Of a DNA stretch of 64,000 nucleotides, positions 6,209 through 56,103 are shown piece after piece; position 1 is the first letter of the stretch, and every line of letters begins with the position of its first letter. The notes under the pieces are model-generated. The model was not told where the DNA came from. It did not search any database and was given only the letters and a program-made list of their open reading frames with translations. The stretch comes from Gemmatimonadota bacterium. Lineage in GTDB: Bacteria; Latescibacterota; UBA2968; UBA8231. The DNA lies in the NCBI GenBank assembly GCA_018672475.1, contig JABHFS010000038.1, positions 62,001-126,000 on the forward strand, given 5' to 3'. A program made the position numbers and the translations under genes.

Positions 6209-6697
6209 ATGAGCGATACAAACCCCGAACAAGCGTTGTGCAAAGGTTGCGGCTTCTGTTGCGACGATACGCTCTTCCCGCATGCCGTCGTCGAAAAAGA
6301 CGAGGTTCTACCGCCGGGTTTTGAGGAGGTGGTCGAAGAGGGCAAGCGCTACTTTACGCTGCCTTGTTCCCATTTTAATGGGATGTGCACGATCTATGAC
6401 AAGCAGCGTGGGAGCATCTGCGGCACGTTCCAATGTTCGGTGCTTGAGGATGCTATTGAAGAAGAAATATCTTTTGTGGAAGCCGCCGATCTCGTCGCCA
6501 AAGTACAATCGCAAAAAGCGCGTATTAACCGACTATTGGCAGCGTACCCGGGCGCGACGATTAGGGACCGCTATGCCGAGTTTGAACGACAGCACGCTGA
6601 GCGAAAAGATACGATGGAGTTCAAACTGCAATACAAAGACCTATTGATAGAATGGGTTGTCTTCAAGGCGCGGCTTAAGCGTTTTAGCCCAGAGTAG
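6209..6697 (+). CDS. YkgJ-family cysteine-cluster protein
   Basis: A 162-residue protein of PF03692. The N-terminal LCKGCGFCCDDTLFP carries the CxxCxxCC cluster; further cysteines lie in LPCSHFNGMCTIYDKQRGS and ICGTFQCSVL, giving the eight-cysteine pattern thought to bind Zn or Fe-S. The C-terminal half is a charged alpha-helical region (about 95-160). Family function is unresolved. It follows the PqqD-like gene by 39 bases, a pairing that suggests joint action on a peptide or metal-dependent process; that is inference. Confidence 0.82.
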   Translation: MSDTNPEQALCKGCGFCCDDTLFPHAVVEKDEVLPPGFEEVVEEGKRYFTLPCSHFNGMCTIYDKQRGSICGTFQCSVLEDAIEEEISFVEAADLVAKVQSQKARINRLLAAYPGATIRDRYAEFERQHAERKDTMEFKLQYKDLLIEWVVFKARLKRFSPE

Positions 6698-6874
6698 GTT
6701 TGTGCAGTCTGCGTCTGCAGGCGAGGGATACTGGGGTGACCATGGTGGGTATTTTTAAGTCTCCCGGGCCGTCGCGACCACTCCCCCGGCCTCTACCTAT
6801 AATATTCTGCCCCCGGACAGTTGCTCGCGGAAACGCTGGAGCAGGGTCTTTCTCTGGGCGGGCCATTCTCAAGC

Positions 6875-9316
6875 CTACTTGGCCAGCACCATCGTGCGTG
6901 TTAGGTCATAGCGGCCGGTGCTGAGCCTGTACAGATAGACTCCGCTGGCCACGGCCCGGCCCGCATCGTCCTTGCCATCCCAGGTAACCGCGTGGTGACC
7001 GGCTACCTGCACTTGCTCGACCAGGTGACGTACGCGTTGTCCGAGCAGGCTGTGGATTTCTAGGGCTACCTGCGCCCGTGTCGGCAGCTGGTAAGCGATT
7101 GTCGTCGACGGGTTGAATGGGTTGGGGTAGTTGGGTGCGAGTGAAAAGTTGGCCGGCAGACTTTCTGCGCTGAGAACCGCCGTCGCCACGGTGTCGATGA
7201 CCGCGAAAGTGCCCGCCAGGGCGGCCGTCAGGCCATTGGTGAGGCCTATTAGGCGGATCGAATAATCGCTGCCTATGGGCAGATTCGGGTCGATCTCCCA
7301 GTTCAGTGCGCTAAAGGCAGGCATGGTGTCGAGCACTGCGACCAGCGCATCCCCGCGGTACAGCTCGACGGCTACGTCGCTGTCGATGTTGGTGTCCCAA
7401 TACACGAAGTGTTCTAGGCCGCGCTGCAACTGGGCGCCCGCCTGTGGGGTAACCAGCGCCATGGACGGGGCGGCTGTGGTGAAGCTGTTCACCGGGGACC
7501 AGTCGCTGTCACCGGCGTCGTTGCTGACGCGTGCACGCCAGTAGTACTGCGTCTGATCGTCTACGTTTTCTAGGGTAAACAGGGCTTCGGGCAGGCCTGT
7601 CGCATCGACGAGCAAGTCGGTGAACTCGCGGTCGCGGGCCACCTGCAGGGCGTAGTCGCGCACGTAGCCGCGCGGCGTCCAGCGCAGCAGGACGGGCAAG
7701 GCCTGGTTGAGGCTGGCACGGTCTACGGGCTCGACTAATATGGGTGTCAGCGCGAGCGAGAGCAGGTCCGGGTGGCCGATGATGAATTCGCCGGGCTGCG
7801 ATATCTGTGCGACGAGGCGGTCGGTCACGGCGTTGTGGCTGGTGGCCAAGGGCAGGAACAGCCCGCTACCCTCCACGCGGCGATGCAGCACTACGGCCTC
7901 TTCTGGCCTGGGGATGGCCAACGCGGCGGCGTCGAAACGCAGTTCGCCGGAGAAATTCTGAAGGCCCTGTTGTGCGAGCACGAAACGCATGGGCCGCACT
8001 AGCGGCGCCTTGCCGAAGAACCGGGGCGCTGCCGGGGCGTAGTCGTAACGCGACAGAGTGACCTCGTTGTAGCCATCGCCGCTTAGCTCGCCCAGGCGCA
8101 ACTCGGCGCCCACAGCGACTCCGTCCTGGGTGAAGGCGTAGATATTGTCGGTAAGCAGCTCGAACTCGGTAGTGACCGCCGCCACTGTGGGTGGGTAGGG
8201 GAAGCGCAACGCGCGATAGCTTGACATCCCTTCGATGTCGAACCACAGGCGGAAGACCTCTTCGCCGGCTGCGTTGACTTCGGTGGCGACCGGCCCACCC
8301 CGGTTGCTGGCGGTGCCCCAGCCGATAAGGGTATTGCCGTTGGGCAGGCGTTGTGCGCTGCCGCGAAAATTGCCTAGCACGGGCTCGTCAGGAATGTGCT
8401 GCCATACCAGCGTGGCCACCATGCGTTCTTCGTCGAGCTGGTACTCGACGGCCCGCGCGGTCTGCTCGGTGCGTACGGGCGTATTGTCGTAGAATAGAAT
8501 ATTGCCGTTATCGAGGCGCGAGATATGGTGCAGCCCGCGCGCGTGTTGCGACGGCTCAATCCCCTCAAAAGTGAATTGGTTGTTCTTGCCGCCGAATCGC
8601 CAGATGATCTCGCCGGTCTGGCGGTTAATCTTGGTCAACTCCGATAGACTGTTGAATGTGGCAAGCAGATGCCCGTCGTGGTCGAGCGCGACGGAATTGA
8701 CGTGTACAGGATCGAACGCGGCGCGCGCGGAATTATCCACGACGGCATCGGTCAGCTCGAAGTGGTCGGCGGAACGCCATTCGAACACCACATTGCGGTC
8801 GCTGTCCTGCTCCTGGATGATGGAGGCGGCGACCATTGCCCGCGGATGCCCGCCGAGGTGGCTCAGATCCCTGGGCTCCAGATGGTAGCTGATCATCAGG
8901 GCATGACCGTTGGGCAAAAGCACGAAGTCGTGTGACTCGGCCGTATAGCCATTTTTCATCCACCACGTATCTACGACTTCGAAGTCAGGGCCGAGCACGA
9001 CGTGCTCCGCATCGCCGCCGCCGGTGAAGGTGTAGTGGTTGAGGAATTGTGCGTATGATAGATTACCATTGGGTTGCATCTTGAAGTCAGACGAATAGTC
9101 GGTGACCAGATCCTTAAAGAAAAACGGCGTGCCGTCGTTTTTTAGCATCATGATATAGAAGCCAATATCGTCGTGGGGCTGCGCCACGTTGAGGAAGATG
9201 AAGCCTGGGGCGGTCTCTCCCAATACCTCAGTGCGGACCGGGGGGAAGTCGGCAGGTAGCTGCGCTGTCGCGGCGTGAGCGGTCAGTGCCAATAGGGTGA
9301 TAAGCAGCATTTTCAT
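6875..9316 (-). CDS. secreted arylsulfotransferase-like beta-propeller with Fn3 and FlgD-like C-terminal sorting domain
   Basis: About 813 residues. ATG at 9316 is preceded by AAGGA and opens a signal peptide (MKMLLITLLALTAHAATAQ). Residues to about 390 form an aryl-sulfate-sulfotransferase-type propeller (ASST/arylsulfotran_2): HDFVLLPNGHALMISYH, FEWRSADHFELTD, VHVNSVALDHDGHLLATF, GEIIWRFGGKNNQF, QHARGLHHISRLDNGNILFYDN. A fibronectin-III-like domain follows (about 520-615). The C-terminal 85 residues are a FlgD/T9SS type-A-like domain starting SLAPNYPNPFNPSTTI and ending GVYLYRLSTG. The product is therefore exported and probably surface-attached. It is the downstream partner of a paralogue 47 bases away. 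No sulfotransferase activity is proven for this subfamily. Confidence 0.85.
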   Translation of the reverse strand: MKMLLITLLALTAHAATAQLPADFPPVRTEVLGETAPGFIFLNVAQPHDDIGFYIMMLKNDGTPFFFKDLVTDYSSDFKMQPNGNLSYAQFLNHYTFTGGGDAEHVVLGPDFEVVDTWWMKNGYTAESHDFVLLPNGHALMISYHLEPRDLSHLGGHPRAMVAASIIQEQDSDRNVVFEWRSADHFELTDAVVDNSARAAFDPVHVNSVALDHDGHLLATFNSLSELTKINRQTGEIIWRFGGKNNQFTFEGIEPSQHARGLHHISRLDNGNILFYDNTPVRTEQTARAVEYQLDEERMVATLVWQHIPDEPVLGNFRGSAQRLPNGNTLIGWGTASNRGGPVATEVNAAGEEVFRLWFDIEGMSSYRALRFPYPPTVAAVTTEFELLTDNIYAFTQDGVAVGAELRLGELSGDGYNEVTLSRYDYAPAAPRFFGKAPLVRPMRFVLAQQGLQNFSGELRFDAAALAIPRPEEAVVLHRRVEGSGLFLPLATSHNAVTDRLVAQISQPGEFIIGHPDLLSLALTPILVEPVDRASLNQALPVLLRWTPRGYVRDYALQVARDREFTDLLVDATGLPEALFTLENVDDQTQYYWRARVSNDAGDSDWSPVNSFTTAAPSMALVTPQAGAQLQRGLEHFVYWDTNIDSDVAVELYRGDALVAVLDTMPAFSALNWEIDPNLPIGSDYSIRLIGLTNGLTAALAGTFAVIDTVATAVLSAESLPANFSLAPNYPNPFNPSTTIAYQLPTRAQVALEIHSLLGQRVRHLVEQVQVAGHHAVTWDGKDDAGRAVASGVYLYRLSTGRYDLTRTMVLAK

Positions 9317-36340: not shown

Positions 36341-37075
36341 ATGGCAAGTCACCACAACGACAGATTGACCGACGACGAACGGCACCGTCTCGACAACGAT
36401 GGCTTCGTGATTCTGCACGATGTGCTTAGTAGCAAGCAGGTTGGCGCGATCGTCGAACGCATCCAACAACTGGCCGAAACCGCCGAGCGCGACTATTCGC
36501 GCGAAGCCGTCATCGAGCCGGAGATGATCAAAGTTCTTGACCTGATCAACGGCGGTGAGGTTTTCGACGTCGGATACACGCACCCGCGCGTACTAGCGGC
36601 GGTTAACCACGTGCTCGGCGGTGACATGAAATTTCACTCGATGGGCTCGCGTTCTGCCACGCCAGGGTACGGCCATCAGGCGTTGCACCTGGACTTCGGT
36701 CGCGATCTGGGCAGGCCTCACCCCGCGGGGTGCAACACGCTGTGGACGCTGGTCGATTTCGGCTGTCACAACGGCGGTACCCGCCTCGTACCCGGATCGC
36801 ACACATCGGGCCAGAACCCGCGCGAGGTACTCGATGACCCCAAGGCTGATGTTCCCGGCGAAATCCGCCTCGAAGCTCCAGCGGGCTCTGTCGTTGTTTT
36901 CGGCGGCCATACCTGGCACGGTGGCGCGCAAAACCTCAGCGACGACGTACGCTGGACGCTACTGACGGCCTTCTGCAAACGTGATCACCTACAGGACCCG
37001 CCCGTTGCGGAGATGATCGATGATAATGTACGTGCGCGCCTCAGCGAAGAATCGCACAGGTTGCTATACCTGTAG
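36341..37075 (+). CDS. PhyH-family Fe(II)/2-oxoglutarate dioxygenase (10 of 11)
   Basis: 244 residues. The triad is H116-x-D118 (QALHLDFGRD) and H193 (HTWHGGAQN), with R204 (DDVRWTLLTAF). TGGHTWHGG-type text appears as VFGGHTWHGGAQN. The initial MASHHNDRLTDDERHRLDNDGF is the standard opening helix. ATG at 36341 was chosen over the longer frame (36287) because the promoter copy lies at 36223-36254 and the family core starts here. The duplicated upstream region links it to the next PhyH gene. Confidence 0.88.
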   Translation: MASHHNDRLTDDERHRLDNDGFVILHDVLSSKQVGAIVERIQQLAETAERDYSREAVIEPEMIKVLDLINGGEVFDVGYTHPRVLAAVNHVLGGDMKFHSMGSRSATPGYGHQALHLDFGRDLGRPHPAGCNTLWTLVDFGCHNGGTRLVPGSHTSGQNPREVLDDPKADVPGEIRLEAPAGSVVVFGGHTWHGGAQNLSDDVRWTLLTAFCKRDHLQDPPVAEMIDDNVRARLSEESHRLLYL

Positions 37076-37076
37076 C

Positions 37077-37165
37077 GGCCTATCGCCCCTACCACAAGCC
37101 CGTTTGTGTATCGGGCCGGCGGCCTATCTGTCCCTACCACAAGCCCCTTCGTGCATCGGGCCGGC
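37077..37165 (+). repeat. tandem 44/45-base direct repeat
   Basis: Unit 1 (37077-37120) and unit 2 (37121-37165) both run from GGCCTATC through CCCTACCACAAGCCC to ATCGGGCCGGC with a few differences. A partial third copy is at 36125-36152. It begins two bases after the stop of PhyH gene 10, within the spacer before PhyH gene 11. Confidence 0.75.
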
Positions 37166-40906: not shown

Positions 40907-41698
40907 ATGGACGAGGAATACGGCACGGTGGTCTCCGTTGTCGTCGTCGGCGCGACCCGCAGCATCGACACCAACTCCCTGCCCGACCACGCGACTGGCG
41001 CGTTCCCCAACGATGGCAACCCCAACACCATTAGCGCGCAGACGCTTAGTTATGAATTCCCCACCGAGCCGACTTTTACCGGTGACGCCACCTTCGCACG
41101 GGCGCCGGGGATCGCGGTTAATGGCGTGCCGTTTGAGCCGGGCACGGGCGAATCGGTATCCTGTGAGAGCGGCGAGAACTTCCGCATCGAAGCCCTGCAG
41201 GAGTTCTTTAACTTGGGCCTCGACTTCAACAACGCGCACGTACAGCCGACCGGCAAATACCACTACCACGGCGTGTCGCAGATGCTCGTCGACGCCTACG
41301 CGGCCGACGAAGACCTGGTGCACGTGGGTTTTGCCGCCGATGGCTTTCTGATGTATTACTCGAAATCCGGTGACTACCGACCCAGCTATGTGTTGTCGGC
41401 GACTGCGCGCAGCGGCAGTAACTGCACGCCCTCAGGCCCCGACAACACCAGCTTTGATCTGGCGGGCACCTCGCCCGATGGGACCTATACTTCGGATTGG
41501 CAATACAGCGAAGGGATTGGCGATCTCGACGAGTGTAATGGCACCACCATCGACGGGCAGTATGTCTATGTCGTCACCGGAGGCTATCCCTATATCTCAC
41601 GCTGTCTCAACGGCGAGTTTACCGATCTCGGCCCTGATGGTGGTGGACCGCCCCCCGGTGGTGGACCGCCCCCCGGTGGTGGACCGCCCCCCGGCTAA
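40907..41698 (+). CDS. YHYH-domain protein, N-terminus missing, Gly/Pro repeat tail
   Basis: 263 residues. PF14240-type features are GAFPNDGNPN, FNNAHVQPTGKYHYHGVSQ (the YHYH signature), VHVGFAADGFLMYY and LDECNGTTIDGQYVYVVT. The protein starts at once with MDEEYGTVVSVVV and lacks the signal peptide such secreted proteins normally carry; an in-frame TGA at 40886 blocks extension. So either the gene is truncated or the start lies behind a frameshift. The C-terminal tail is GGGPPP repeated three times, encoded by an 18-base unit. YHYH proteins are common in marine bacteria and their function is unknown. Confidence 0.75.
   Translation: MDEEYGTVVSVVVVGATRSIDTNSLPDHATGAFPNDGNPNTISAQTLSYEFPTEPTFTGDATFARAPGIAVNGVPFEPGTGESVSCESGENFRIEALQEFFNLGLDFNNAHVQPTGKYHYHGVSQMLVDAYAADEDLVHVGFAADGFLMYYSKSGDYRPSYVLSATARSGSNCTPSGPDNTSFDLAGTSPDGTYTSDWQYSEGIGDLDECNGTTIDGQYVYVVTGGYPYISRCLNGEFTDLGPDGGGPPPGGGPPPGGGPPPG
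41641..41695 (+). repeat. 18-base tandem repeat encoding GGGPPP
   Basis: Three copies of a GGTGGTGGACCGCCCCCC unit close the YHYH gene. It encodes a flexible Gly/Pro tail. Copy number of such repeats often varies between strains. Confidence 0.8.
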
Positions 41699-52529: not shown

Positions 52530-53318
52530 ATGAAGGCAACGCGCCTGGTTCTTTCCGCTTTTCTGGCCCTCGGTATGGCTAGCGGTGCCGTTTGGGGCGC
52601 CAAGTTCGAGACCAACCCGGGCGACCCGGGCAATAGTATCACTTTTGATGTTTCTGCCCCGCTGGAGACGATTGTCGGCACTAGCGCTGCGGTCAAGGGT
52701 CACTTTAGGTTTGATCCCGGCAACGTCAAGGCTTCGAGCGGTGGCATGTTTGTCGTCGATGTAGCCAAGTTCAAGACCGGGATCGACCTGCGCGATGAGC
52801 ATTTCCGTGACAACTTCTTGCAGGCCAAGAAATACCCCAACGCGACCTTCACCTTGGGCAAGATCACTAAGGCGTCGAAGAAGTCGATTAAGTCGGGCGA
52901 ATCGGTCGAGCTAGAAATTGAAGGCACGATGAATATGCACGGCGTAAAGCACAAGGAAAAGGCCACGGCGACGGTGACCTATCTCGACAAGGAAGCAGTC
53001 GGTGGCGTGTTGCCGGGCAATGTGATCGTGGTCAAAGCCAGTTTTCAGATCGCCTTGGCCGACTATGGCATCAAGCGCCCTGCAATGTTGGTGCTAAAAG
53101 TTGGCGAAGTTGTCGATATCGATTTGACCAGCCGGTTGACCGATGCGCCGAAGATGGCTAACGGTGATGGCTGTGGTGCTGGCGGTTGCGGTGGCTGTGG
53201 TGCTGGCGGTTGCGGTAGCTGTGGTGCTGGTGGTTGCGGTGGCTGTGGTGCTGGTGGTTGCGGTAGCTGTGGTGCTGGCGGTAGCGGCGGCTGTGGTGCT
53301 GGTGGTTGCGGCGAGTAA
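52530..53318 (+). CDS. YceI-family exported protein with a six-unit Cys/Gly repeat tail
   Basis: 262 residues. Signal peptide about 1-23, then a YceI lipocalin-like domain (about 24-203: SITFDVSAPLETIVGTSAAV, DLRDEHFRDNFLQAKKYP, GTMNMHGVKHKEKATATVTY, LPGNVIVVKASFQIALADYG). YceI proteins bind isoprenoids or other lipids in the periplasm. From C215 the protein ends in six octapeptides of the form CGAGGCG[GSE] with one Cys-to-Ser change in unit 5, 11 Cys in all. ATG has AGGAG upstream. The tail is unusual for this family and may bind metal or be modified. Confidence 0.93.
   Translation: MKATRLVLSAFLALGMASGAVWGAKFETNPGDPGNSITFDVSAPLETIVGTSAAVKGHFRFDPGNVKASSGGMFVVDVAKFKTGIDLRDEHFRDNFLQAKKYPNATFTLGKITKASKKSIKSGESVELEIEGTMNMHGVKHKEKATATVTYLDKEAVGGVLPGNVIVVKASFQIALADYGIKRPAMLVLKVGEVVDIDLTSRLTDAPKMANGDGCGAGGCGGCGAGGCGSCGAGGCGGCGAGGCGSCGAGGSGGCGAGGCGE
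53172..53315 (+). repeat. 24-base tandem repeat encoding CGAGGCG[GSE]
   Basis: Six copies of a 24-base unit of the TGTGGTGCTGG family encode the C-terminal octapeptides of the YceI protein. Codons vary a little between units, and the last position alternates GGT/GGC (Gly) with AGC (Ser). Confidence 0.9.
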
Positions 53319-53344: not shown

Positions 53345-53387
53345 AAGTCCCCTGTGAAGTTCGGCTCCACAGGGGACTTTTATTTTT
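53345..53387 (+). terminator. rho-independent terminator of the YceI gene
   Basis: A 12-bp stem, AAGTCCCCTGTG/CACAGGGGACTT, with an 11-base loop and a TTATTTTT tail, 27 bases after the stop. It lies just before the convergent TPR gene. Confidence 0.88.
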
Positions 53388-53392
53388 GATTA

Positions 53393-55060
53393 TTATTCTG
53401 CAAGCCCTGCGAGCCGCGCGCGGATCTCCGCCAATTGCGGCAGATCCGTGTCCGCATTTTGCCAAGCGGTGAGCGCCTGCTCGTAGGTCTGTTTAGCTTG
53501 CTGTTTTTCACCGCCTAACTCATATGCGTGCCCGAGGCCCATCAGTCCGAGTCCACTATTGGGCCGCGTCTTGAGTGCTTGCAGGTACGCGTCGCGCGCC
53601 TCTTGCCATTTTCCGGCGCTCAGGTGGATTTGTCCCAGGCTTTCGTAGAGCGGTCGCGCGAATTCGGGCGGCTCTTCGTAGGGCAACTTTTTGGCGGCTT
53701 CTTTGGCATTGTCCCATTCGATGAGCGCGAGGTCGTGCTCGCCGCGGCCGCTGTGGATATGCGCTTGCAGCTCGTCGGCCAATACTTCGAGATAGCGGCC
53801 CCGTCGCCTGGCGTAGTAACGGTCGTTGCCGCCGGAAAAGCCGAAGGCAAAAGACCAATTGATACCGCTGAGCGTTTCGCGGTGTGTTTCGGCGGTTGCG
53901 ATGTCATCGTGTTGCAAAGCGTGCATGCCTTCGGCATAGGCGATTAGCCCTCGGATATAGGTGCCGGCGAAATTGCTCCGCAGCGTGTCGTTGGCGGCGA
54001 GTTGGCCGAGCGCTTCGGCGGCGCGCTCCCAGACGCCGAAGCGGATATGCAGCCTGGCGCGGGCCATGCGGCCTTGGTAGAAGATGATATTGCGGCGCTC
54101 CGACAAGGCGACTTCTTCCAATTTTCCTGCCCAATCTAATGCGTCCTGATAGCGCCCTTCTTCGGCGGAGTTGGCGACGAGATAGCTGAGGTTGTGCACG
54201 TAGTTCCAGTTGTTGTCCGCCGAGGTCCCCGATTCGGCCATGTAGGTGGAATCGACGGCGTAGGCGGCGACGAAGGAGGTGCGGGCGCGGTCGTAGTCGC
54301 CGACGAGATAGTGGATGTGGCCGGGCATGTGCACGATATGCGCGTTGCCTGGGGCCAGCGCGGCGATGGCTTCGGCGCTCTGTAGTGCGGCGGCTGGGTT
54401 GGAGCCGGGTTCGACGAGGTGGATATAATAGTGGTGCGCGCCGAGGTGGTCGGGGTGCGAGGCGAGCAATGGGCGCAGGATATCCTGTGGATCCGGCTCG
54501 TTTTTGCGCGGTCGGTCGGGGTGGTAGCCGCGCATGAGGAAACGCGCGAGAAAGACTTTGGCTTCGATGTCGTCGGGATAATTTTCGATCAGTTGTTGCA
54601 TCTCGGTGATATAAGCTTGGCGCCCAAGCGAGTCGAGCTGGACCGTCGCGCGGATATAGTGTTGTTCGCGGTCGGAGACTTCTGGGGCCAACTTTTTGAA
54701 TTTGCCGAATGCGCGGCGTTTGGCCGATTGCGGGCCGCGCGGGGTCTGGTAGATACCCCACCAGGCCATGGCGCATTTGGGGTCGAGTTTGCTGGCTTGG
54801 CGGAAGGAGCGCAGGGCTTCGTAATACCAGAAGCCGTGCAGCAGCGCTACGCCTTGGTCTACGTAGCGTTGGGCTTCGGGGGAGGCGGTGGTAACGGGGA
54901 AGGGGATCGTGCCGACGCCTGTGAGGATGGGGGCAGTTTTTTTGTTAATTTTGGGGGTGGATAAGGCTGTGGTTGTGGTCGTGGTGGAGGGTTGTTGGGG
55001 GGTGGCGCAGCCTAGGAGGCAGAGAAACAGCAGGAATCGCTTCGCATTCAATGGTTGCAT
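53393..55060 (-). CDS. tetratricopeptide-repeat lipoprotein
   Basis: About 555 residues. ATG at 55060 opens MQPLNAKRFLLFLCLLGCATP, a lipoprotein signal (Cys18). A longer frame (55126) overlaps the upstream gene. TPR-like helix pairs run throughout: QRYVDQGVALLHGFWYYEALRSF near 80, then HHYYIHLVEPGSNPAAALQ and NAHIVHMPGHIHYLVGDYD in the middle, and a clear C-terminal pair WQEARDAYLQALKTRPNSG. The central HxxYxH/HMPGHIH residues recur in a family of unknown function. It is downstream of dgcN-dgcA and probably co-transcribed. Confidence 0.82.
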   Translation of the reverse strand: MQPLNAKRFLLFLCLLGCATPQQPSTTTTTTALSTPKINKKTAPILTGVGTIPFPVTTASPEAQRYVDQGVALLHGFWYYEALRSFRQASKLDPKCAMAWWGIYQTPRGPQSAKRRAFGKFKKLAPEVSDREQHYIRATVQLDSLGRQAYITEMQQLIENYPDDIEAKVFLARFLMRGYHPDRPRKNEPDPQDILRPLLASHPDHLGAHHYYIHLVEPGSNPAAALQSAEAIAALAPGNAHIVHMPGHIHYLVGDYDRARTSFVAAYAVDSTYMAESGTSADNNWNYVHNLSYLVANSAEEGRYQDALDWAGKLEEVALSERRNIIFYQGRMARARLHIRFGVWERAAEALGQLAANDTLRSNFAGTYIRGLIAYAEGMHALQHDDIATAETHRETLSGINWSFAFGFSGGNDRYYARRRGRYLEVLADELQAHIHSGRGEHDLALIEWDNAKEAAKKLPYEEPPEFARPLYESLGQIHLSAGKWQEARDAYLQALKTRPNSGLGLMGLGHAYELGGEKQQAKQTYEQALTAWQNADTDLPQLAEIRARLAGLAE

Positions 55061-55116
55061 TTGCAAATACAGCAGTACCGTAAAAAGAAAAGGTCCATTG
55101 CGTCGACGGGCATGCC

Positions 55117-56103
55117 TCAGCCCCATAGATCTGTTTGCGGCGGGTGTAACAGGCTGCCGTCATAGTGCAGGCCGTGTTCGCGGTCTTGTTTGAGCAATAG
55201 GGGGCCATCCAGGTCGACGTAGCGGGCTTGCGGGGCGAGTAGGGCGGCGGGGGCCATGGCGAGTGAGGTGGCGACCATGCAGCCAACCATTAGTTCTAAG
55301 CCCAGTTCTTTTGCTTTTGTCACCAACAATAGCGCTTCGGTGAGGCCGCCGGTTTTGTCGAGCTTCAAGTTGACGCATTCGTAGCGGGTGGCCAAGGCTT
55401 CAAGGTCGCTGGTGGTGTGGCAGGATTCGTCCGCGCATAGGGGCACGGGGTGTTCGAGTTCGGCGAGCAAGGCATCTTGACCGGCGGGCAGGGGCTGCTC
55501 GATAAGGGCTACGCCGCGTTGCGCGAGTTCGGCGGAAAGCGGCTCGACTTGGGGCGCGGACCAGCCTTCGTTGGCGTCGACGATAAGTGTTGCGTCGGGG
55601 GCGTTGGCGCGGATGGCTTCGATGCGGTCGAGGTCGGAGCCGTCGCCGCCGAGTTTGATCTTGAGCAGGGGGCGATCGGCGTTTACGGCGGCGGCTTGGC
55701 CCATGGCTTCTGGGGCGGCGAGCGAGAGGGTGTAGGCAGTGGTTACCGAGTGCGGTGTGCAAAGTCCAGCGAGTTGGTGTACGGGCTGGCCGCTGAGTTT
55801 GGCTTCGAGATCCCAGAGGGCGCAGTCTAGGGCATTGCGCGCGGCGCCGGGCGATAACGCGTCTTGCAGGCTCGCGCGATTCAGGGTGCCGGCCTCGATG
55901 CGCGGGCGCAGCGCTTCTATGGCGGCGGTAGCACCGACGATTGTTTCGTCGTAGCGCGGATAGGGCACCGATTCGCCGCGGCCGGTGTGACCGTCGCGGC
56001 TCAGTTCGACGACGAAGACTTCGGCGGTGGTCTTGGACCCGCGCGAGATGGTGAAGGTTTGTGCGAGCGGGAAACTTTCGCCGTAGAGCGCGAGCCTGGT
56101 CAC
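55117..56103 (-). CDS. dgcA: N-acetyl-D-glutamate racemase-type enolase-superfamily enzyme
   Basis: 328 residues. GTG at 56103 overlaps the TGA of the upstream gene (GTGA), a strong sign of coupling. This is the dipeptide-epimerase branch of the enolase superfamily: K148-I-K150 (LLKIKLG), metal ligands D176 (DANEGW), E202 (IEQPL) and D225 (CADES), and the NLKLDKTGG lysine region near 246-250. Next to a DUF1611 (DgcN) gene this pair is the known D-glutamate catabolic unit, in which DgcN acetylates D-glutamate and DgcA racemises it to N-acetyl-L-glutamate. The alternative is an L-Ala-D/L-Glu epimerase. Confidence 0.85.
   Translation of the reverse strand: MTRLALYGESFPLAQTFTISRGSKTTAEVFVVELSRDGHTGRGESVPYPRYDETIVGATAAIEALRPRIEAGTLNRASLQDALSPGAARNALDCALWDLEAKLSGQPVHQLAGLCTPHSVTTAYTLSLAAPEAMGQAAAVNADRPLLKIKLGGDGSDLDRIEAIRANAPDATLIVDANEGWSAPQVEPLSAELAQRGVALIEQPLPAGQDALLAELEHPVPLCADESCHTTSDLEALATRYECVNLKLDKTGGLTEALLLVTKAKELGLELMVGCMVATSLAMAPAALLAPQARYVDLDGPLLLKQDREHGLHYDGSLLHPPQTDLWG

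Follow-up and report, generated by a model that had tools for sequence, protein, structure and literature searches.

The locus and its gene products

The window, by which we mean the entire 64,000-nucleotide stretch of DNA analysed here, carries a YceI-family gene whose product ends in a regular array of cysteine and glycine residues, preceded by a collinear gene for a DUF3179 protein that lies 110 bp upstream (Table 1). Assignment of the former to the YceI family is based on the PF04264 profile, which the product matches with E 1e-22 and 81.4 bits (gathering score 23.7); the NCBIfam model PRK03757 scores 43.5, with a cut-off of 232. Related structures in the Protein Data Bank are 2x32, 2x34, 3q34 and 1y0g, and none of these matches covers the cysteine tail. 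An AlphaFold2 prediction from the single sequence gave a mean pLDDT of 40, too poor a model for inspection of the barrel. The protein has a predicted signal peptide and is probably periplasmic. The terminator-like stem-loop downstream has a loop of 11, which places it beyond the limits of the inverted-repeat scan.

Table 1. Features of the YceI locus, with positions counted from the first nucleotide of the window
Feature	Position	Strand	Details
DUF3179 lipoprotein-like gene, 473 aa	50998..52419	+	Pfam PF11376, E 1e-82, 278 bits; lipobox-like LAAGC seen directly
Cys codon of the DUF3179 CPLT motif, predicted redox residue	51643..51645	+	alignment with TGA-read-through translations
YceI gene with Cys-Gly tail	52530..53318	+	262 aa; ATG start; AGGAG ribosome site just upstream
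Predicted Sec-type signal peptide, about residues 1-23	52530..52598	+	MKATRLVLSAFLALGMASGAVWG, by inspection
YceI (lipocalin-like) domain, residues 36-200, no Cys	52635..53129	+	Pfam PF04264
Six 24-bp tandem units	53169..53312	+	coding [GS]CGAGG[CS]G; 11 Cys; spacing CX4CX2C
Terminator-like inverted repeat, then T-run	53346..53378	+	AGTCCCCTGTG / CACAGGGGACT, read directly in the sequence
TPR gene	53393..55126	-	convergent to YceI; profile match

The TPR gene is probably not part of the system, and neither a cytochrome nor a regulator gene adjoins the YceI gene in the window. The same-genus genome G008 contains the C39 peptidase, DUF3179 and dipeptide epimerase genes of this neighbourhood and lacks the YceI and TPR genes, which correspond to a gap between DUF3179 and the epimerase with homology resuming on either side; in a second genome of the genus, G005 (86% identical DNA), the contig stops within DUF3179. 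The YceI gene was therefore either gained at this locus in one lineage or lost from the relatives. DUF3179 does not require it, since G008 has kept DUF3179 in this position while lacking YceI. The YceI proteins that do occur in the genus are only remotely related (about 28%) and tail-less.

Two further repeats were observed elsewhere in the window. The gene at 40907-41698, which encodes a protein with a YHYH-like KYHYHG motif, ends in a perfect 18-bp repeat of 3.1 copies coding for GGGPPP, and a 45-bp direct repeat in two copies (89% match) lies at 37075-37165.

A young, in-frame array of cysteine-glycine octads

The initial annotation described six octapeptides with 11 cysteines lying outside the YceI fold. 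Both statements hold, as the PF04264 match stops at residue 200 and residues 214-261 read GCGAGGCG GCGAGGCG SCGAGGCG GCGAGGCG SCGAGGSG GCGAGGCG, followed by a final E; one correction is that the fifth octad is CGAGGSG, in which serine replaces the second cysteine. All 11 cysteines of the protein are located in the tail, and the first 213 residues contain none.

At the DNA level, Tandem Repeats Finder reports a 24-bp unit in 6.0 copies with 91% match and a score of 239, the highest in the window. The units differ from each other at 0-4 of 24 bases, two of them being identical, and third positions differ between CGAGGCG units at a mean of only 0.6 of 6. Because the array continues the reading frame of a conserved domain and runs to the stop codon of the gene, beyond which lie the stem-loop and T-run, it is coding and far from a chance occurrence. 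We rejected a sequencing or assembly artefact, as the frame is kept up to that stop codon and the repeat is embedded in a contig of 134 kb. Contamination was likewise rejected as a source, the block of DUF3179, C39 peptidase and flagellin genes being 86% identical in G005. The CGAGGCG array is young and species-specific, and has recently been re-expanded in this species through 24-bp slippage, so that its exact length is probably only loosely constrained.

Distribution of the exact motif

Searches for the exact tail were uniformly negative outside this genome. CGAGGCGxCGAGGCG had no match in one genome each of 84,980 species or in the IMG/VR viral contigs, and the doublet (CGxGGCGx)2 was absent from every other genome among 64 of the phylum. 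A whole-protein search of genome contigs yielded no confirmed relative, and tblastn against plasmids found only ordinary YceI genes with matches that stop before the tail. Three short-motif matches within the same genome were out of frame and were rejected as chance. At the DNA level, the generic pattern CX2CX4CX2CX4CX2C was present in 82 of 386 genomes, mostly as TGC-repeat noise; it is therefore not specific evidence, and only those matches that are read in frame were used.

Cysteine tails on other YceI proteins

The closest relatives of the window protein among the 386 genomes belong to other phyla (G259, 42%; G379, 39%; G072, 37%; G239, 35%). The nearest, G259, is tail-less and has no DUF3179 gene nearby, and the G072 protein is also tail-less. 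The other two carry repeats of an Asn-Pro-Cys (NPC) type: these flank the domain on both sides in G379, which has 30 cysteines, and form a C-terminal tail in G239, whose protein ends in NPCNPCNPCGGKKSNPCNPCNPCGGKKR. In G045 and G035, two members of the same class as the window genome, proteins of another YceI lineage terminate in NPCNPCGNACNPCGKNACNPCAKNPCNPCGE and NPCNVCNPCGENPCKPCAKNPCNPCGE, respectively. Both of these tails follow the pattern (CNPC[AG]KN[PA])n and end in CGE, and the window tail likewise ends in CGE. In the window, G379, G035 and G045 tails, most gaps between cysteines are of 2 or 4 residues; the G239 tail has gaps of 2 and 7 residues. The initial annotation took absence of the tail from all relatives as the mark of a repeat artefact. 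Such absence holds for the exact CGAGGCG form, which occurred in no other genome searched, and does not hold for cysteine tails in general, as those of other composition with matching spacing are present in remote relatives and class members.

A tree built from the YceI domain alone, in which support is weak near the query, places the tailed forms outside any single clade and indicates at least two origins of cysteine tails. Cysteine tails with matching spacing have thus recurred on YceI at least twice. The NPC repeats are of a different age from the window array. Between NPCNPC units in G379, G158 and G239, a mean of 3.2-3.8 of the 6 third positions differ, against a random synonymous expectation of 3.5; third positions are the only informative sites, as the units were chosen by peptide pattern. 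Since synonymous sites are saturated, the NPC repeats are old and have been kept as protein. Together, these comparisons suggest that the spacing of thiols, rather than the sequence that fills the gaps, is what evolution keeps.

The proteins of a related YceI lineage in genus g9 (L039-L042) finish in a Gly/Arg-rich stretch (RGQQGRRGGGGRGG...) where G035 and G045 have cysteine tails. Low-complexity tails are thus acquired repeatedly at the YceI C-terminus.

The neighbouring DUF3179 gene

DUF3179 is a listed selenoprotein family with the motif UxxC/T (PMC9312934, PMC13188914). The window protein belongs to this family by its PF11376 match and by a (U/C)xx(C/T) motif, here CPLT. In the same phylum, four genes of the family have an in-frame TGA at the position of the cysteine in the window CPLT motif, on which basis this cysteine is the predicted redox residue. 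These four candidate selenoprotein genes, with one in-frame TGA each, are L183, L184 (G017), L185 (G042) and L186 (G021). DUF3179 is therefore likely to be an oxidoreductase with a CxxT/CxxC site that would use a thiol, or a selenol in the relatives.

A partnership between DUF3179 and the tailed YceI protein, raised in the initial annotation, is independently supported by a locus in a distant phylum. At L180 in G239, DUF3179 (7394-8335) lies directly upstream of the NPC-tailed YceI gene (6520-7272), both on the minus strand. Within the phylum of the window, 44 YceI places were compared with 80 DUF3179 places. The window locus alone has the two within 10 kb of each other; the other 43 YceI places have no DUF3179 nearby. 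DUF3179 lies near 2 of 5 tailed and 0 of 41 untailed YceI genes (post hoc one-sided Fisher p 0.01). This association is suggestive only, given the small sets, the shortness of many contigs and the inclusion of G239 from a different phylum. No DUF3179 neighbour is present at the tailed YceI genes of G035 and G045.

A wider group of cysteine-tailed envelope proteins

The window protein shares its architecture, a secreted domain with a terminal cysteine array of 2- and 4-residue gaps, with a wider group of YceI proteins and cytochromes. This group is defined by architecture, and the tree gives no single clade. The neighbours of the other cysteine-tailed genes are redox genes, including those for multihaem cytochrome c, Crp/Fnr and MsrA/MsrB. 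At L180 in G239, a Crp/Fnr gene is followed by DUF3179, the NPC-tailed YceI and a multihaem cytochrome c gene, with MsrA/MsrB divergent beyond Crp/Fnr; we regard this as a candidate locus for redox or oxidative-stress functions of the envelope. In G286, DUF3179 adjoins an NPC-tailed cytochrome and a multihaem cytochrome homologous to that of G239 (34%). Homology at 34-40% links the multihaem cytochromes of G239, G286 and G112. The G286 and G112 copies lie near NPC repeats, and the G239 and G286 copies give weak matches to ExtKL/MtrC-like profiles. A search of the literature on NPC or other cysteine-repeat tails of YceI proteins or cytochromes found no description.

Several further proteins and genes were noted in the course of this survey. 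G112 (L174) and G158 (L175) encode secreted SoxA/TsdA-like cytochromes c with dense NPC repeats at the N- and C-termini, and G286 (L170) a similar small secreted cytochrome that likewise bears NPC repeats at each terminus. L180 also includes a histidine kinase and a sigma-54-type regulator. Secreted proteins composed of C[DE]PC and CKPKC repeats are encoded at L178 4704-5159 (G180) and L179 4335-5135 (G365), and the G180 lipoprotein of C[DE]PC octads adjoins a cysteine-rich envelope protein that we take to be OmcB-like.

Proposed role of the tail and alternative explanations

Ubiquinone-8 is among the isoprenoids bound by YceI proteins, which have a role in defence against peroxyl radicals (PMC9113575), and YceI domains have been found joined to cytochrome domains, with a link to cytochrome-dependent electron transfer (PMC8981238). 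We propose that the thiol-rich tail on this isoprenoid-binding carrier is an envelope thiol redox arm that works with DUF3179, a reading to which we assign a probability of roughly 40%. The window protein would be a periplasmic lipocalin-like carrier with an isoprenoid cargo such as ubiquinone-8, as in known members of the family, and its flexible C-terminus, holding all of the cysteines, would provide a multi-thiol arm. The CX2C pairs could then donate or accept electrons, or keep sulfur in reduced or oxidised form, close to the lipid or quinone cargo, and the tail may cooperate with the adjacent DUF3179 protein. The cargo, the redox activity of the tail and the interaction of YceI with DUF3179 are all steps that we infer; in favour of the proposal are the confinement of cysteine to the tail and its complete absence from the YceI domain, the spacing and recurrence of cysteine tails on other YceI proteins, the conservation of the NPC forms as protein, the DUF3179 neighbours in G239 and G286, the TGA aligned with the DUF3179 cysteine in relatives and the redox genes around other cysteine-tailed genes. 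Counting against it, the exact tail is found in one genome only, and near-identical units fit slippage as well as selection. The same is true of the tail-less nearest relative G259, of DUF3179 without YceI in G008, of the tailed genes of G035 and G045 that have no DUF3179 neighbour, and of the window gene itself having no cytochrome or regulator gene beside it.

The main rival is that the tail binds metal: its CX2C/CX4C thiols would chelate a soft metal (Cu, Zn, Cd or Hg) of the periplasm and serve as a sponge or chaperone, much as a metallothionein or bufferin does. Dense, regularly placed cysteines, CX2C pairs and a flexible glycine-rich linker would all suit such a role, and the periplasmic cysteine-rich tails of TIGR04222 proteins, as well as bufferins, have been discussed as metal-related (PMC12452194). 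However, the tail lacks His and Met ligands, and no metal transporter or regulator was noticed beside the window gene or the NPC-tail genes, whose listed neighbourhoods consist of redox genes; we therefore consider metal binding unlikely, if still a serious contender. A tail without function, in which a young 24-bp minisatellite at the 3′ end of the gene is tolerated outside the fold, would account for the near-identity of the units, including their third positions, for the restriction of the exact motif to one genome and for the Gly/Arg tail at the equivalent end of the g9 proteins. Unpaired cysteines are usually costly in the periplasm, and at least two YceI lineages carry cysteine-rich tails whose spacing matches, the NPC forms being conserved as protein, which makes a neutral array improbable.

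Two further explanations appear weaker. The tail could be structural, forming disulfide cross-links with itself or with other cysteine-rich envelope proteins, like the chlamydial cysteine-rich outer-membrane complex. Similar octads do occur in what may be such an envelope, in the G180 lipoprotein and its neighbour, but the likeness to OmcA/OmcB is a presumed one, drawn in part from layout, no cysteine-rich structural partner lies near the window gene and the remainder of the protein is free of cysteine, which leaves this explanation distinctly improbable. Lastly, the initial annotation raised the idea that the tail might be a substrate of post-translational modification, to be checked by a search for MNIO or radical SAM genes beside other tailed YceI genes. 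The tail would then be RiPP-like and acted upon by MNIO, YcaO or radical SAM enzymes. Cys/Gly repeats resemble known substrates of these enzymes, and MNIO genes sometimes accompany the genes for TIGR04222 tails (PMC12452194). The absence of a modifying enzyme from the window was confirmed, and extends to the whole genome for MNIO/DUF692 (PF05114) and YcaO, although absence from a genome that is about 92% complete is not proof. The four SPASM proteins of the genome are all encoded on other contigs, with no radical SAM/SPASM gene near the tail, and none of these enzymes was seen among the listed open reading frames around the tailed YceI genes of G239, G379, G035 and G045. Modification of the tail is thus very improbable.

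Returning to the thiol redox arm, the shared DUF3179 neighbour and cysteine spacing hint at an undescribed envelope thiol module. In position, spacing and neighbour, the window tail resembles recurring, conserved cysteine-tailed envelope proteins that are apparently undescribed. A broader and more speculative proposal, which we hold only tentatively and consider rather doubtful, is that cysteine-repeat tails of the CNPC and CGAGGCG types are an undescribed modular periplasmic thiol device, attached repeatedly to YceI and SoxA/TsdA-like cytochromes across phyla and sharing one envelope redox pathway with a DUF3179 (seleno)thiol protein and multihaem cytochromes; the window tail would then be a glycine-type re-invention. 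DUF3179 is widespread and its function unassigned, the selenocysteine of its active site points to a redox protein, and the physiology of YceI is debated. Tailed YceI beside DUF3179 in two phyla, and a tailed cytochrome with DUF3179 and a multihaem cytochrome as neighbours, would assign the two families a common role that can be tested.

Comparison with known systems

The window protein has the domain (residues 36-200) and signal peptide of the YceI family (PF04264; BcnA, X158 domain), and differs from it by the tail, into which none of the PDB matches extends. In the BcnA/LcoA antioxidant lipocalin system, a cytochrome b561 gene lies directly upstream, whereas the window gene has DUF3179 in this place. 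The Gly/Ser/Cys C-terminal tails of TIGR04222 proteins are similarly of low complexity, interspersed with cysteine and facing the periplasm; those proteins, however, are multi-pass membrane proteins often found with MNIO, and the window protein has no TIGR04222 match in an NCBIfam scan. Bufferins and other MNIO-modified RiPPs are secreted and cysteine-rich like the window protein, which differs in having no bufferin domain match and no MNIO gene in its genome. Octad cysteine repeats, of the C-x-P-C type, also characterise the chlamydial cysteine-rich envelope lipoproteins (OmcA-type; L178 in G180), which have no YceI domain and a structural context. A further parallel in architecture is provided by the NPC-repeat YceI proteins and cytochromes (G239, G379, G035, G045, G112, G158 and G286), which combine a secreted redox or carrier domain with a cysteine-repeat tail of mostly CX2C/CX4C spacing. 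Their filler is Asn-Pro with Lys/Ala, in contrast to Gly/Ala/Ser in the window, and their repeats are old and often N-terminal as well; a DUF3179 gene next door is common to the window, G239 and G286.
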